Source: an uncultured Bacilli bacterium (GTDB lineage: Bacteria; Bacillota_I; Bacilli_A; RFN20; CAG-631). From it: DNA of 44,813 nucleotides. Below the pieces are notes generated by a model. The model worked only from the letters and a program-made list of their open reading frames with translations, was not told where the DNA came from and did not search any database. The position numbers were made by a program, and so were the translations under genes. Numbering within the stretch: the stretch's first letter is position 1; each line of letters opens with the position of its first letter. The stretch covers positions 1 to 44,813 of the forward strand of contig CANQTM010000010.1 of assembly GCA_947626825.1 (NCBI GenBank), written 5' to 3'. Of the stretch, positions 35,155 through 40,846 are shown in pieces.

Positions 35155-35448
35155 TTAAAATAAAATTTTAAAAATATCTTGGAATTGTGATATACTAATT
35201 GATGGATATTGATTTTTAAAGTTCCTAATATAATTCAACTCTTTTTGGCTTGGTGAATTATTAGATGGCTTATTTTCTAAACCATGAGACAGAACAGAAT
35301 CAATATCTTTTTTAGTTAATTCTTTAGCATATCTTATAATTTGCATTTTAGTATAATTAGTTAATAAAGCAATTGCAGAATAAGAAAGAGTATTGTTACC
35401 ATTTATTTTATCTTGAACAAGTTTTAATGCATATTCTTTGTTATGCAT
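35155..35448 (-). pseudogene. IS1202-like (ISNCY) transposase, N-terminal fragment, copy 1
   Basis: 97 residues covering only the N-terminal helix-turn-helix region. A segment SAIALLTNYTKMQIIRYA is followed by LSHGLENKPSNNSPSQKE and NFKNQYPSISISQFQDIF. That order (HTH, xHGxxxKxP, then YPxxSxxxF) is what I know from IS1202-type transposases, which are over 400 residues and have a DDE domain that is absent here. It stops soon after, next to the ppdK terminator. A stretch in the plus frame at about 35108-35163 reads like the C-terminal remnant of another gene (ending EKEMLK). Family call by eye only. Confidence 0.55.
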
Positions 35449-35556
35449 TGTGGATATTTATCCTCCTTTCAAATAGTTATTATACTCCTTTATAATTTTT
35501 TAATCGGTAACATTTTAACTAATGAATGGCGGTAACATTTCTAAAAAAGATTAACA
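35255..35556. repeat. 302-bp direct duplication, copy 1 (IS left end)
   Basis: Identical to 35694-35995 except for three single-base differences that I can see, offset 439 bases. It carries the transposase N-terminus, its promoter region and an end reading TGTTAATCTTTTTTAGAAAT on the minus strand. Two copies of GGTAACATTT, 24 bases apart, lie inside the end. Confidence 0.9.
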
Positions 35557-35665: not shown

Positions 35666-35887
35666 TTATATGAAAGAATATAAACATAATGAAGAATTAT
35701 TAGATGGCTTATTTTCTAAACCATGAGACAGAACAGAATCAATATCTTTTTTAGTTAATTCTTTTGCAAATCTTATAATTTGCATTTTAGTATAATTAGT
35801 TAGTAAAGCAATTGCAGAATAAGAAAGAGTATTGTTACCATTTATTTTATCTTGAACAAGTTTTAATGCATATTCTTTGTTATGCAT
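35666..35887 (-). pseudogene. IS1202-like transposase, N-terminal fragment, copy 2
   Basis: Same N-terminal region as copy 1, with only Tyr to Phe changed after IIR, then truncated after KPSNNS where the duplication ends at 35694. The last residues read into unrelated DNA. Confidence 0.55.
35670..35693 (+). pseudogene. Start of a gene cut off by IS copy 2
   Basis: ATG at 35670 behind GGGGAAA starts MKEYKHNE, then runs into the IS copy and stops after 18 codons. It is the first eight codons of a lost gene that belonged to the promoter and leader just upstream. Confidence 0.5.
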
Positions 35888-35995
35888 TGTGGATATTTAT
35901 CCTCCTTTCAAATAGTTATTATACTCCTTTATAATTTTTTAATCGGTAACATTTTAACTAATGAATGGCGGTAACATTTCTAAAAAAGATTAACA
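35694..35995. repeat. 302-bp direct duplication, copy 2 (IS left end)
   Basis: 99% identical to 35255-35556. Its outer end (35995) lies inside an ATPase gene and its inner end cuts a separate plus-strand gene. This suggests insertion followed by deletion or recombination between copies. Confidence 0.9.
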
Positions 35996-36179
35996 AAATA
36001 GAACGCAACTCTTGATTTTTTCTAAAATCAAGATAGATTACATTTTTATAATTTTCTTTTGCAAACTTTTTGACAATGTATGTTTTCCCAATTTGTCTTA
36101 ATCCTTTGATGACAAGTGGCTTTTTATTTTTACTATTTTTCCATTCAAGTAATTCCTTATACATTTTCCTTTTAAGCAT
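35996..36179 (-). pseudogene. DUF4143 ATPase N-terminal fragment cut by IS copy 2
   Basis: Starts at ATG 36179 (MLKRKMYKELLEW) behind GGAGAATG. The Walker A is GLRQIGKTYIVKKFAKENYK, followed by VIYLDFRKNQELRSI, where the IS end begins (minus-strand TGTTAATC). About 60 of some 400 codons remain. The GLRQIGKT motif marks a third ATPase subtype, different from both intact types in the window. Confidence 0.85.
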
Positions 36180-36304
36180 AATTTCATTCTCCAGCGCAGC
36201 CATCGTACTAGAAAAAAGAAAAAAATCAAGCGAATACTAGTACGATTTTGGAAATTTTTCAAGCGAATAATATGTTAAATTGGTAAAAAAAACAATGGAA
36301 TAGT

Positions 36305-36916
36305 TTAAAGAATCAAATCTTCTATTGAACAATTTAAAACTTTTGAAAGAGCATATAAAGTTTCTGCTTGTGCCTTACTTATGTCTATTTTACCTTGTTC
36401 ATATGCTCTAATATTTCGCAATGGAACTTCACTAAGGATAGCAAGTTGCGATTGTGATAAATGATTTGCCATTCTCAAACATTTCAATGATGATTTTATT
36501 TTAAGTCTTGAGGCAAACAAATCAATTGATTGTCGTATATCCATTTCATGATATGGAAAGTAGTGTTGTAATAGTTCTTGACACGGAAATGCTGCGATTA
36601 ACGTGGCGTAAGATTTGTTGAAATACCATTGCATATAAGCAAGCGTGTAGCCGAGCCAATATTCTGGCGATGCAAAGTCATTTATTTCAACAGATAATGG
36701 TTGCTCATTTAAGACAAGGGCCATAAGTTCATTTGCAGATTTACCAAGTACAAAGACAGGATCAGCAGTTTCTAAAGCGTGGCAAATCGGCGATGCGATA
36801 AGTTTATCTGCAAAATCATCTATTGAAATTTTTCGGACCAATACAGCAAGTTCAAACATTAAAGCAAGTTTGTTTTGAATTATTGAAAGATTATTGCTAT
36901 TGTATGCGTGGATCAT
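36305..36916 (-). CDS. XRE-type antitoxin with N-terminal partner domain
   Basis: 203 residues. The C-terminal 60 form an XRE helix-turn-helix: LRMANHLSQSQLAILSEVP then LRNIRAYEQGKIDISKA. The N-terminal 130 residues (VLVRKISIDDFADKLIASP, ASPEYWLGYTLAYMQWYFNKSY) resemble small partner proteins found next to DUF3990 toxins. It starts inside the toxin gene (20-base overlap), so the two are translated together. It probably neutralises the neighbour and represses the operon through the repeats at 37598-37644. G+C content is visibly higher than in the chromosome core, suggesting transfer. Confidence 0.8.
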   Translation of the reverse strand: MIHAYNSNNLSIIQNKLALMFELAVLVRKISIDDFADKLIASPICHALETADPVFVLGKSANELMALVLNEQPLSVEINDFASPEYWLGYTLAYMQWYFNKSYATLIAAFPCQELLQHYFPYHEMDIRQSIDLFASRLKIKSSLKCLRMANHLSQSQLAILSEVPLRNIRAYEQGKIDISKAQAETLYALSKVLNCSIEDLIL

Positions 36917-37574
36917 TTGGCTTTACTCCTCGTATAATGTCATTAAGGTATAAGTCATCAATGCTTGACTTACCTTTTCTATTAAGTAAAAATTCCATAC
37001 GAGCTTTGTCGTTTCTTGCTTTGCGAAGAGGATAGTAGATATTGCTGTTAGATATCTCGTAACCTAGGAAATTTATTTGTAAAAAGGCTTGTTTTGATAT
37101 AAGAACAATTTGTTCACCAAGATTACCAAGTCGTAATGCTTCAGAAAGTCTTTGGACTGAAATTGTGTTGTTTAAAAAACTTTCGGCATAAGCAAAATAT
37201 GCATCATCTGCACGATAGCCTTTAATGACATCATAATCTTTAATGGGCAATGCAAAGTGAGCGATAAGATATTCTTTACCTATTTTGGCAATATCAGACT
37301 TCAAAGTAAAAACTCGATTTTGAAGTAGGATAGTAATCCAATGCAAAACATTAAATTTCTTTTGTGATAAATCGAGTAGTTTTAAATTTGTCATGTCAAG
37401 TGAGTATTTATTAGCATAACCATTGCGGTTTTCTTCTACTGCCCACTCTTTGGCAAGATCAAGTGATTCGGTACAATAAAATCCAAGTCCATAGTCATTA
37501 TATGCCTTTCCTTTGCCATAAATTGGACATTTGATGATAGAAACTGATCCATGATAGATAATTTTTTTGTTCAT
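36897..37574 (-). CDS. DUF3990 protein, ADP-ribosyltransferase-like toxin
   Basis: 225 residues. DUF3990 belongs, to my knowledge, to the ADP-ribosyltransferase superfamily. Seen in the sequence: YHGS with His8, the DYGLGFYCTES strand-turn with Tyr33, a GYRADDAYF motif near 120 and NLGEQIVLI with Glu154. Together these fit an H-Y-E type NAD-binding site. A second gene with an XRE domain overlaps its 3' end, the normal layout of a type II toxin-antitoxin pair, here with the toxin first. The target (protein, RNA, DNA or nucleotide) is unknown. Ribosome site AGAGG. Confidence 0.83.
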   Translation of the reverse strand: MNKKIIYHGSVSIIKCPIYGKGKAYNDYGLGFYCTESLDLAKEWAVEENRNGYANKYSLDMTNLKLLDLSQKKFNVLHWITILLQNRVFTLKSDIAKIGKEYLIAHFALPIKDYDVIKGYRADDAYFAYAESFLNNTISVQRLSEALRLGNLGEQIVLISKQAFLQINFLGYEISNSNIYYPLRKARNDKARMEFLLNRKGKSSIDDLYLNDIIRGVKPNDPRIQ

Positions 37575-37597
37575 ATTAAAACCTCTTTTATAAATTA

Positions 37598-37644
37598 TAA
37601 CATTGTAATGTTACATTGTAAAGAATAATACTGACATTGTAATG
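37598..37644. promoter_or_regulatory. Operator repeats upstream of toxin-antitoxin pair
   Basis: TAACATTGTAATGTTA (37598-37613) has perfect 7-bp arms around GT. ACATTGTAA occurs three times, at 37600, 37613 and 37634, starting 13 and 21 bases apart. Position just before the toxin start fits autorepression by the XRE protein. Confidence 0.75.
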
Positions 37645-37743
37645 CTATTAAATATTGAAAGGAAATAAACTTAAATTTTTAGATTAAAATATTAAAATTG
37701 CAATTCATTATCGATAAACCAATAGTTAGTTAGTTGAGGAAGA

Positions 37744-39042
37744 TTAGTCTTTCAAACACCCAATAGGGATGACATATACACCATCATCACGTTTATATGC
37801 AATTTCTCCTCCTGTTATTACTAATAGCAAATTTGGCTCTTGCAAATGATGTTTAGGATTTTCAACATTATGATTATATATCAAATTGCTTAGTTGACAC
37901 AAATGTTGTGCACCTTCTTCAATTTGTTTATTACCAAGTTTAAATTCAATCAACGCATACTTGCCATTGTCAAGATGTAATACACAATCGGCTTCCAATC
38001 CAAAGCGATCGCGATAATATGATATTCTTCCACCAAGCAAAGATGAATAAATTTTTAAATCTCTTATACATAATGTTTCAAATATGAAACCAAATGTATT
38101 TAGGTCAAGCAACAATTTTTCAGGAGTAAGTGCTAGTGCTGCGACAGCTATGGATGGATCAGTAAATTCTCTTTTATTGCAACTTCGAATAGATGTAGCA
38201 GAACGAATAGATGGAGTCCATGCTGGGACATCTTCTATCACGAATAAACGCTTTAACACATTTAAATAAGCATAAAGAGTTGTCTCGCTAAAATTTAAAA
38301 AGTTTGCTTGCATGTCTGATAAGATTGAAGTATTGGAGGCAAGCGTAGAAATGTTTCTTGCGTAAGAACGTAATAAAGTTCTCATTCGTTGTGGGTCACG
38401 CTTAACACCATCAACACTTGAACAGTCCTCATCACAAATACTTTGTAGGTATGCTTTTGCAACAAACAATGCCCCATTTTCTGTTTTGACATTTAAACTT
38501 GCAGGCCAACCACCACGGCATGCAGCAAACACAAGACGTTCAAGAGAAAGAGGAGAAGTTATACCATCAACATCAAGATTTGTGTTATCAAACAATTCTT
38601 TCAAAGAAATAGCACCACTTGATTCTTTTGACTCGTAAAGACTCATTGGGTACATCTGTAATTTTGCAATTCTGCCAGTTCCTGAGTGCATGATTTGTTT
38701 GTCATCAACAGAATTAGATCCTGTCAATATGAATAATCCAGTTTCTTGCCTATTATCTACAGCTGTGCGTACTGCATCCCAAAGAACAGGTGCAATCTGC
38801 CATTCATCAATAAGTCTAGGATTTTCACCAACGAGAAGTAAGGAAGGCTTAGTTTCGGCAGTTGCAAGATATCCTTTTACTTGATCAGGATCTTGCATTT
38901 TTAACACGCTTTTTGCTTGCATTTCGGCTGTAGTTGTTTTACCACACCATTTTGGCCCAACGATAAGAACTGCACCAATATAAGAAAGCGTTTCTTGCAA
39001 TTGTATATCCATAAGTCTTGGATTATAAATATATTTGTTCAT
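37744..39042 (-). CDS. AAA ATPase, DUF4143 family (GPKWCGKTTTA type)
   Basis: A 432-residue paralogue of the gene at 86-1378. Walker A GPKWCGKTT is at residues 29-37, RLIDEWQ follows, then FILTGSNS. The C-terminal nuclease-like block has ALIEFKLG, and the protein ends VIPIGCLKD. I start at ATG 39042 behind GTGAGGTTTACT; an upstream ATG adds ten residues but lacks a ribosome site. G+C is visibly higher than in its paralogue, so the two copies have different recent histories despite similar protein sequence. A strong promoter and tandem repeats lie upstream. Confidence 0.9.
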   Translation of the reverse strand: MNKYIYNPRLMDIQLQETLSYIGAVLIVGPKWCGKTTTAEMQAKSVLKMQDPDQVKGYLATAETKPSLLLVGENPRLIDEWQIAPVLWDAVRTAVDNRQETGLFILTGSNSVDDKQIMHSGTGRIAKLQMYPMSLYESKESSGAISLKELFDNTNLDVDGITSPLSLERLVFAACRGGWPASLNVKTENGALFVAKAYLQSICDEDCSSVDGVKRDPQRMRTLLRSYARNISTLASNTSILSDMQANFLNFSETTLYAYLNVLKRLFVIEDVPAWTPSIRSATSIRSCNKREFTDPSIAVAALALTPEKLLLDLNTFGFIFETLCIRDLKIYSSLLGGRISYYRDRFGLEADCVLHLDNGKYALIEFKLGNKQIEEGAQHLCQLSNLIYNHNVENPKHHLQEPNLLLVITGGEIAYKRDDGVYVIPIGCLKD

Positions 39043-39067
39043 AGTAAACCTCACTGATTTTTTTAAT

Positions 39068-39097
39068 ATCATACATTAATAAGTTGTAAAATGTCAA
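39068..39097 (-). promoter_or_regulatory. Sigma-A promoter of ATPase gene
   Basis: Minus strand TTGACA (39097-39092), 18-base spacer, TATGAT (39073-39068), 26 bases before the start codon. Tandem repeats begin 13 bases upstream of the -35. Confidence 0.8.
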
Positions 39098-39423: not shown

Positions 39424-39452
39424 TTGAAATTTAAGATAAATTTTGCTATTAT
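39424..39452 (+). promoter_or_regulatory. Promoter of the TIR-methyltransferase gene
   Basis: TTGAAA (39424-39429), 17-base spacer, TATTAT (39447-39452) with a TGC extension. The gene therefore has its own strong promoter. Confidence 0.75.
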
Positions 39453-39483: not shown

Positions 39484-40779
39484 ATGAAAAATATTGATTT
39501 TTTTATAAGTTATTCATCTAATGACAAAAACATAGTTGATTCTCTTGTCGAGTCACTTGAAAGTATGGGAGCAAAATGTTGGTATGCTCCAAGAGATGTT
39601 CAAGGCCGTTATGCTAAAGCTATTTGCGAGGCAATAGAAAATGCAAAAGTATTTTTATTATGCCTTTCTAAAAATTCAGCTAAATCTGAACATGTTTTAA
39701 ATGAAATAGAAATGGCTTATAGCCACAAAAAAATGACCAATGGAGCTATTAGTATTGAACCTGTTTGTATTGAAAATATAGATATTGATTGTAAAGAATT
39801 TGATGAAATAATGTATTATATTAGAAGAATAAATTTTATTATTCCTCAAGATATAGGTTCTTCATATTTAATTGCTAAAGAAGTAGTAAAAAATAACAGT
39901 TCTTTATTTGGCGCTTTTGAATCTAAAAAGAAAGAACGTACTGCTAGTTCATATTTTACTGATGATATAGAGAAAAAACGTTTGATTATTCAAAATGAAT
40001 TGATAAAGAAATTTGATCATGAAGTTTATGAAAAAGTTTATAATTCGTTTCATAATCCTATAGTTTTAGATGTTGGATGTGGTAATGGCGATATTCTTAT
40101 TAATCGTTTTGGTGTGGATAATTATACTTTAATAGGTGTAGATCACGATGAAAAAAGTATTTTAGAAGCCAAAAATAATCATAATTTTGCTAAGTTTTAT
40201 AATTTAGATGTTGAAGATGATAATTTTGCTGATAAACTTGATGATATAATGATACAAAATAATATTCAGTCCTTTGATATTATTCATATTTCTATGGTTT
40301 TATTACATTTAAAATCACAATGTAAATTATTAAGAATTTTACGCCGTGTTTTGGCTAATAATGGCATTTTAATAATTAAAGATATTGATGATGGTTTAAA
40401 TTTTGCATATCCTGATGATAATGATGATTTTGAAAAGATATACAAACTTTGTGCACACGATGAACTTGCTGGTGATCGTCATAATGGTCGACAAATATAT
40501 ACCAATTTAGTTAGAGCTGGATATAAAAAAATATCTTTAGAAAAACAAGGTTTTTCAAGTATTGGTTTAAATTATGATGAAAAAGAAAATCTTTTTAAAT
40601 TATATTTTAAATTTATTTTAGACGACATTAAATACATGCATGAAAAATATCCTAACAATATCCAAATTGAAGAAGAATACGAATGGTACAAACAAAACTA
40701 TGAACGTATTCATGATAATTTTATGATGGATGATTTTGTTTTTTCACTTGGCTTTCAAATTTATTTAGCTCAAAAATAG
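39484..40779 (+). CDS. TIR domain fused to class I SAM methyltransferase
   Basis: 431 residues with two domains. Residues 1-140 are a TIR domain: strand A FFISYSSNDK, BB-loop region CWYAPRDVQGR, and helix C SEHVLNEIEMAY, where Glu74 is in the place of the catalytic glutamate of NAD-cleaving TIR enzymes. Residues 160-431 are a class I methyltransferase. Motif I is LDVGCGNGD (195-203), acidic LIGVDHDE follows for motif II, and FDIIHISMVLLHL and NNGILIIKDIDDG fill motifs IV-V. A helical C-terminus with YKQNYERIHDNF ends it. No signal or membrane segment. TIR enzymes in defence usually cleave NAD or make cyclic ADP-ribose signals; here the usual STING, SIR2 or sensor partner is replaced by a methyltransferase. 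Ribosome site AAGGTAAGGG; own promoter and terminator; next to a toxin-antitoxin pair and IS remnants. Confidence 0.88.
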   Translation: MKNIDFFISYSSNDKNIVDSLVESLESMGAKCWYAPRDVQGRYAKAICEAIENAKVFLLCLSKNSAKSEHVLNEIEMAYSHKKMTNGAISIEPVCIENIDIDCKEFDEIMYYIRRINFIIPQDIGSSYLIAKEVVKNNSSLFGAFESKKKERTASSYFTDDIEKKRLIIQNELIKKFDHEVYEKVYNSFHNPIVLDVGCGNGDILINRFGVDNYTLIGVDHDEKSILEAKNNHNFAKFYNLDVEDDNFADKLDDIMIQNNIQSFDIIHISMVLLHLKSQCKLLRILRRVLANNGILIIKDIDDGLNFAYPDDNDDFEKIYKLCAHDELAGDRHNGRQIYTNLVRAGYKKISLEKQGFSSIGLNYDEKENLFKLYFKFILDDIKYMHEKYPNNIQIEEEYEWYKQNYERIHDNFMMDDFVFSLGFQIYLAQK

Positions 40780-40808
40780 TAAAGAAATCAATTTTTAAAT
40801 AAAAAAGA

Positions 40809-40846
40809 GATAATTGTATTTTATAATTTATACAATTATCTTTTTT
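40809..40846 (+). terminator. Terminator after the TIR-methyltransferase gene
   Basis: GATAATTGTAT (40809-40819) and ATACAATTATC (40830-40840), 11 perfect pairs, then six T. Confidence 0.9.

Follow-up and report, generated by a model that had tools for sequence, protein, structure and literature searches.

The window, by which we mean the whole stretch of 44,813 nucleotides that was analysed, is an entire contig (G000:C10) of a 1.84 Mb genome and has a GC content of about 25%. At 39484–40779 on the forward strand it carries one intact gene, with an ATG start and free of frameshifts, that encodes a protein of 431 residues. Two Pfam models score above their curated cut-offs in this protein: TIR_2 (E 9e-19) over residues 6–100 (39499–39783, + strand), and Methyltransf_31 (E 8e-18) over residues 193–309 (40060–40410, + strand), the latter being a class I methyltransferase core. 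Conservation and an AlphaFold model define a further section of the methyltransferase half at its C-terminal end (residues 310–431; 40411–40776, + strand). The fusion of a TIR domain to a methyltransferase (TIR-MTase), which had been proposed from the letters of the DNA, was thus upheld by both domain models and by a confident structural model. One other TIR gene in the genome scores above the Pfam cut-off.

The motifs named in the original prediction were found in their places. The TIR glutamate, Glu74 (codon 39703–39705, + strand), looks intact, and a BB-loop-like stretch (CWYAPRDV) and methyltransferase motif I (LDVGCGNGD, residues 195–203) are both present; the acidic residue of motif II is also kept (GVDHD). 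The AlphaFold2 model, built from a 47-sequence alignment, has a mean pLDDT of 92.5 (about 87–97 in the TIR block) and the strand–helix order expected for both folds, so that the TIR fold is present in the predicted structure. How the two domains are placed relative to each other is less certain: the pTM is 0.68, and the linker is weak around residue 147.

The best match in the PDB for the TIR domain, by profile search, is Cat1, the CARF-TIR NADase of type III CRISPR, which is the closest TIR with a solved structure. Residues S68 and E74 align one to one between the two proteins, and among the alanine mutants of Cat1 that were tested, E74A was defective in causing growth arrest (PMC12162218). 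Unlike Cat1, which has a CARF sensor for cA4, the window protein has a methyltransferase as its second domain and no CARF. The closest solved structure to the C-terminal half, by both profile and fold (Foldseek E 1e-15), is 3mgg, a stand-alone class I methyltransferase from Methanosarcina mazei. The match includes a GRxIY stretch, but 3mgg has no TIR domain and reads DHG where TIR-MTase reads DDG. No DNA methyltransferase model was found among the class I methyltransferase matches of the window protein, which places it outside Type II restriction-modification and BREX-type systems. Matches in PADLOC were weak and confined to the TIR part, and neither a SAVED nor a STING domain was found, so the protein does not belong with the TIR effectors of CBASS (TIR-SAVED, TIR-STING). 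Matches in PHROGs were also weak, and only to the methyltransferase.

The TIR-MTase gene lies between an AAA_14/DUF4143 ATPase gene and a lipoprotein-like gene, with no RyR gene beside it. It is followed by an A/T-rich, T-tailed hairpin of 17 pairs (40803–40846, + strand; −16 kcal/mol, z −5.5), which bears out the terminator that had been assigned to it. The promoter assigned to it was borne out in part: 39424–39452 (+ strand) makes a good extended −10 promoter, reading TTGAAA-17-TATTAT with a TG ahead of the −10 element, but such sites are as frequent by chance, with 23 in the window against 19.5 ± 4.5 in shuffled sequence. As had been suggested, an ATPase lies 0.4 kb away (37744–39072, − strand; Pfam and PADLOC); it resembles the PADLOC candidate PDC-S01 and has a GC content of 0.356, compared with about 0.25 for much of the window. 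The toxin–antitoxin pair was also recovered, as genes for an HTH protein and a DUF3990 protein (36305–36916 and 36897–37574, − strand) that resemble the PADLOC candidate PDC-M42. We treat the ATPase and this pair as neighbours only. The whole of 36305–39072 has a GC content of 0.33–0.36, above that of most of the window, and the neighbourhood is supported as defence-like. The insertion-sequence scars of the original prediction were not borne out, since no IS was found in the window. What was found there is a direct duplication of 300 bp (35255–35554 and 35694–35993, 99% identical) that spans a small ORF, and beside it a truncated AAA_14 remnant (35958–36203). A genome of the same genus that lacks TIR-MTase (G001) was compared in search of an empty site: there a uridine-kinase-like gene and a lipoprotein-like gene are followed by a gene judged AraC-like by eye, but the left flank is on another contig, so that the site is not a clean one.

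A joint search for both domains showed that the fusion recurs. Searching genomes with the single protein as query gave no loci, its patterns being too specific; with an alignment as query, a scan in which each species was represented by one genome gave 48 loci, and a class-level search added further members. The resulting family set has 56 full-length proteins, with 52 loci carrying an anchor gene, and these 56 homologues rule out a chance fusion or frameshift artefact. Among 98 relatives, full-length copies were found in nine genomes including the window's own, the others sharing 32–70% identity with it, and there were three more distant paralogues besides. The hosts are mostly uncultured or gut Bacillota, together with Acholeplasma, Anaeroplasmataceae, Olsenella and one MAG labelled Bacteroidota. 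The gene may have been transferred in the past. A phage or plasmid origin was considered and rejected, as no full-length match was found in viral contigs, phages or plasmids. A full-text literature search, which reached few preprints, found neither a TIR-methyltransferase system nor a pairing of TIR with RyR channels, in agreement with the view that the architecture had no known description. TIR-MTase is a bacterial family so far unnamed.

Two loci of the family have distinctive surroundings. In L009:1501–4302 (the same locus as L053) the TIR-MTase gene is about 120 bp upstream of cas9, with a fragment of an AAA_21 ATPase on its other side. The cluster at L066:384–9704 holds two TIR-MTases, another TIR protein and a DUF4062-STAND NTPase, whose DUF4062 part belongs to a family of TIR-like NADases (PMC13174449).

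We noted that the two halves of the protein differ in how their active-site motifs are conserved. Eight residues are invariant in all 56 proteins (F7, S9, E74, R166, D302, D303, R332 and R336). Motif I (DxGxxxG) is kept in 44/56; in the other 12 it has been lost together with the acidic residue of motif II. Since E74 is invariant in 56/56, the TIR site is under stronger constraint than SAM binding, and a catalytic methyltransferase role cannot be general across the family. The original proposal that methylation restrains the TIR may still apply to members whose motif is intact, the window protein among them. Eleven of the 12 proteins without SAM motifs form a well-supported clade (L058:9692–11743, L067, L070, L071 and L073–L079) and the twelfth is from L033. 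In all 11 members of this clade a GNAT acetyltransferase gene lies directly upstream, within about 60 bp. Outside the clade, a GNAT within about 220 bp upstream was found only in L047, L054 and L064. In 6/11 of the genomes with a degenerate copy there is also an intact TIR-MTase. D302, D303, R332 and R336 are invariant with or without motif I. The C-terminal half thus retains some function when the SAM motifs are gone.

Clustering of the genes that neighbour TIR-MTases gave three recurrent groups besides common genes: GNATs, proteins that we call RCK-RyR, and a RyR-SLOG-like cassette. At seven loci (L052, L054, L061 of Acholeplasma granularum, L075 and L085–L087) the RCK-RyR gene abuts or overlaps the TIR-MTase gene, either of the two coming first, and in G343 (L122) the two genes are 1.5 kb apart. 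The RCK-RyR proteins are about 680–960 residues long, with two to four hydrophobic segments at the N-terminus and the Rossmann motif GFGK. Their assignment to RyR comes from a C-terminal stretch, EHxRW...H(G/A)(N/C)(L/I)TT..GL, in which the H..W and the H of the RyR pocket can be recognised, and the Pfam RyR model itself scores below significance on them. A structural model of one of the two such proteins from the window's own genome (L119:3796–6006) has a pLDDT of 90.8 and resembles the TrkA gating ring and the GsuK and MthK K+ channels, with Foldseek E values of only 2e-4 to 1e-2. On the model, the RCK-RyR proteins look like channel-type membrane proteins, their body built of tandem RCK-like units and their C-terminus carrying a RyR domain, and they may conduct ions.

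The cassette consists of genes for a RyR protein with a SLOG-like tail, a second TIR protein, a protein of ~700 residues, a ParA-like protein, a protein of ~780 residues and a GNAT. Here the RyR domain is significant by Pfam; the SLOG-like tail was judged by motif and an HD-like N-terminus by eye. A complete cassette is followed by TIR-MTase and RCK-RyR in L054 (= L126), and TIR-MTase is at one end of the cassette in L064 and L080. In L058 a RyR-SLOG-like gene (Pfam RyR E 5e-11) lies about 15 bp upstream of TIR-MTase. The genes of the L054 cassette gave weak matches only in PADLOC, and the six genes look like an undescribed TIR/RyR conflict system.

The association of TIR-MTase with RCK-RyR extends beyond adjacent genes. 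A profile search found RCK-RyR in 22/395 genomes of the class. It was present in 13/13 of those with a full-length or near-full-length TIR-MTase, two of these matches being weak (G075 and G085), compared with 9/382 of the others (Fisher P 7e-19, ignoring kinship). Counted per genus, the figures are 9/9 and 7/184. The profile had been partly seeded with proteins encoded beside TIR-MTases; for the four genera in which the RCK-RyR matches are strong and non-adjacent, the comparison is 4/4 against 7/184 (Fisher P 7e-6, ignoring kinship). A second set, which has a few genomes in common with the class set under different handles, gave RCK-RyR in 21/36 further genomes with TIR-MTase and 9/195 controls (Fisher P 1e-13, ignoring kinship).

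The window's own genome follows the same pattern. Contig C24 has two overlapping RCK-RyR-type genes, for proteins of 712 and 737 residues, with no TIR gene beside them (L119:1677–6009), and C12 has the six-gene cassette with its RyR-SLOG-like and second TIR proteins (L089:7659–17350). With TIR-MTase alone on C10, all the parts seen together in L054 are therefore present in this genome, on three contigs. Across the clade of the window gene the picture is divided: six genomes with clade members carry RCK-RyR (G000, G032, G005, G017, G026 and G442), and no RCK-RyR match was found in the genomes of L041, L043, L044, L047, L048 and L065. The close relatives in L042–L050 have no consistent neighbour gene. 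No more than four class genomes have the ~780-residue protein of the cassette; RCK-RyR is present in all four and TIR-MTase is missing from two, from which it follows that RCK-RyR partners TIR systems more widely and that the copies in the window's genome may serve its second TIR. The description of the window gene as a single-gene effector was therefore only partly sustained: an intact-looking TIR NADase is fused to a methyltransferase, but relatives are encoded with RyR-domain proteins and GNATs, and RyR proteins are encoded in its own genome.

The fusion itself, residue conservation, operon links, co-occurrence across genomes and predicted folds are what the analysis shows. On this basis we favour a reading to which we give a probability of about 0.45: TIR-MTase would be a signalling TIR akin to those of Thoeris, its product would be received by RyR-domain proteins, and its methyltransferase half would serve as sensor or regulator. 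Upon a trigger, probably phage infection, the TIR domain would cleave NAD+ through E74 and make an ADP-ribose-type signal. This signal would be read by RCK-RyR membrane proteins and by soluble RyR proteins with a SLOG-like tail; in relatives the genes of these proteins adjoin TIR-MTase, and in the window's genome, where the TIR-MTase would act with them in trans, they lie on other contigs. Opening of a pore, or some other disturbance of the membrane, would then halt the cell under infection. We see the methyltransferase half best as a module for sensing or marking, which would set the TIR by sensing or covalently marking a target; in one clade this half has lost its SAM-binding motifs and an acetyltransferase gene always accompanies it.

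Precedents for such receptors come from both sides of the conflict. Phage RyR-domain proteins bind 2′/3′cADPR, the signals of Thoeris TIRs, via H..W and H, and one of them degrades these signals, according to a recent preprint (PMC13232231); TM-macro ThsA is a membrane effector of Thoeris with an ADPR-binding domain (PMC11204291). Taken together, they make an ADPR-type signal for RyR-domain receptors the simplest model. The phage proteins (RyDEP; PMC13232231) belong to the same RyR (R12) domain family as the partners of TIR-MTase, in which the pocket residues H..W and H are conserved, but RyDEP is viral and small and acts as a hydrolase or sponge, whereas the partners are encoded by the host and carry a membrane/RCK body or a SLOG-like tail. 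As in Thoeris, TIR-MTase is a TIR enzyme with an intact catalytic glutamate, its relatives adjoin a membrane protein whose domain family binds ADPR-type nucleotides, and one class of partner has a SLOG-like tail. Unlike in Thoeris, the enzyme carries a methyltransferase, and RyR takes the place of the receptor domain, on a body that resembles an RCK channel; the window, where the gene stands alone, has no ThsA of either the SIR2-SLOG or the TM-macro type.

This solitary position is what would be expected if, in the window's clade, the protein were a stand-alone abortive-infection NADase, with a methyltransferase half that senses a phage molecule or the loss of SAM and a TIR domain that depletes NAD+, no second-messenger receptor being involved. 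The gene is a monocistronic unit closed by a terminator, its relatives in L042–L050 share no consistent neighbour, the genomes of six clade members are without an RCK-RyR match, and Cat1, the best match of the TIR domain in the PDB, depletes NAD+ (PMC12162218). We consider this explanation a serious rival for the window's copy, though less probable than the receptor model. Against it, six genomes with clade members do carry RCK-RyR proteins, and elsewhere in the family TIR-MTase and RCK-RyR genes are linked in operons. That the TIR is set by covalent marking is, in our estimate, quite improbable: here the C-terminal half would methylate a host or signal molecule, the GNAT of the sister clade would acetylate it instead, and the mark would license the TIR to make the ADPR-type signal that opens RCK-type channels via their RyR domain.

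The retention of motif I in 44/56 proteins, and the GNAT directly upstream in 11/11 members of the clade without it, as if one group transfer had replaced another, could also mean that the methyltransferase half takes part in biosynthesis of the signal. It would then methylate the TIR product, or the molecule that is joined to ADP-ribose, and in the other clade the GNAT would acetylate it instead, giving a dedicated signal for the RyR receptors. To our knowledge, no TIR signal is methylated or acetylated, and with 6/11 of the genomes that hold a degenerate copy also holding an intact one, any replacement is incomplete. The invariance of D302, D303, R332 and R336 regardless of motif I fits this explanation, as does the existence of conjugated TIR signals such as histidine-ADPR (as cited in PMC13232231), but phage RyR domains bind plain 2′/3′cADPR (PMC13232231), and we judge it less probable still. 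Very improbable, finally, is a protein that stands outside defence and mainly methylates RNA, a protein or a small molecule, its TIR domain serving for scaffolding or self-association. In favour of this, many TIR domains are scaffolds, and conservation of the methyltransferase fold is good. However, an invariant catalytic glutamate and a SAM motif lost in 12/56 are the reverse of what this explanation predicts. The sporadic spread (full-length copies in 9/98 relatives, the window's own included) and the defence-like neighbours, namely Cas9 in L009/L053, DUF4062-STAND in L066 and the PDC candidates in the window, also count against it.

Immune signalling by TIR enzymes occurs in bacteria, plants and animals, but few bacterial receptors of their products are known. 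If the recurrent pairing of a TIR with a channel-like RyR protein is true, it becomes testable whether a route from cADPR to RyR-type channels predates animals in bacteria; the covalent-mark reading, if true, would give a bacterial counterpart of the action of cADPR on ryanodine receptors. Control of a TIR by a group-transfer domain would, if true, be a new mode of TIR regulation, and from an invariant TIR glutamate beside a SAM motif that can be dispensed with, clear predictions follow for the behaviour of mutants.

RCK-RyR genes were also seen in other company. In L124:212–3381 (G212:C42) such a gene overlaps that of a different TIR protein, of 322 residues and without a methyltransferase; the RyR partner is thus not exclusive to TIR-MTases. 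In L121:270–14037 and L123:1157–9041, RCK-RyR-type genes lie beside a pair judged ClpP-like by eye and conserved genes for proteins of 306 and 619–632 residues, and these clusters are possibly a separate system.
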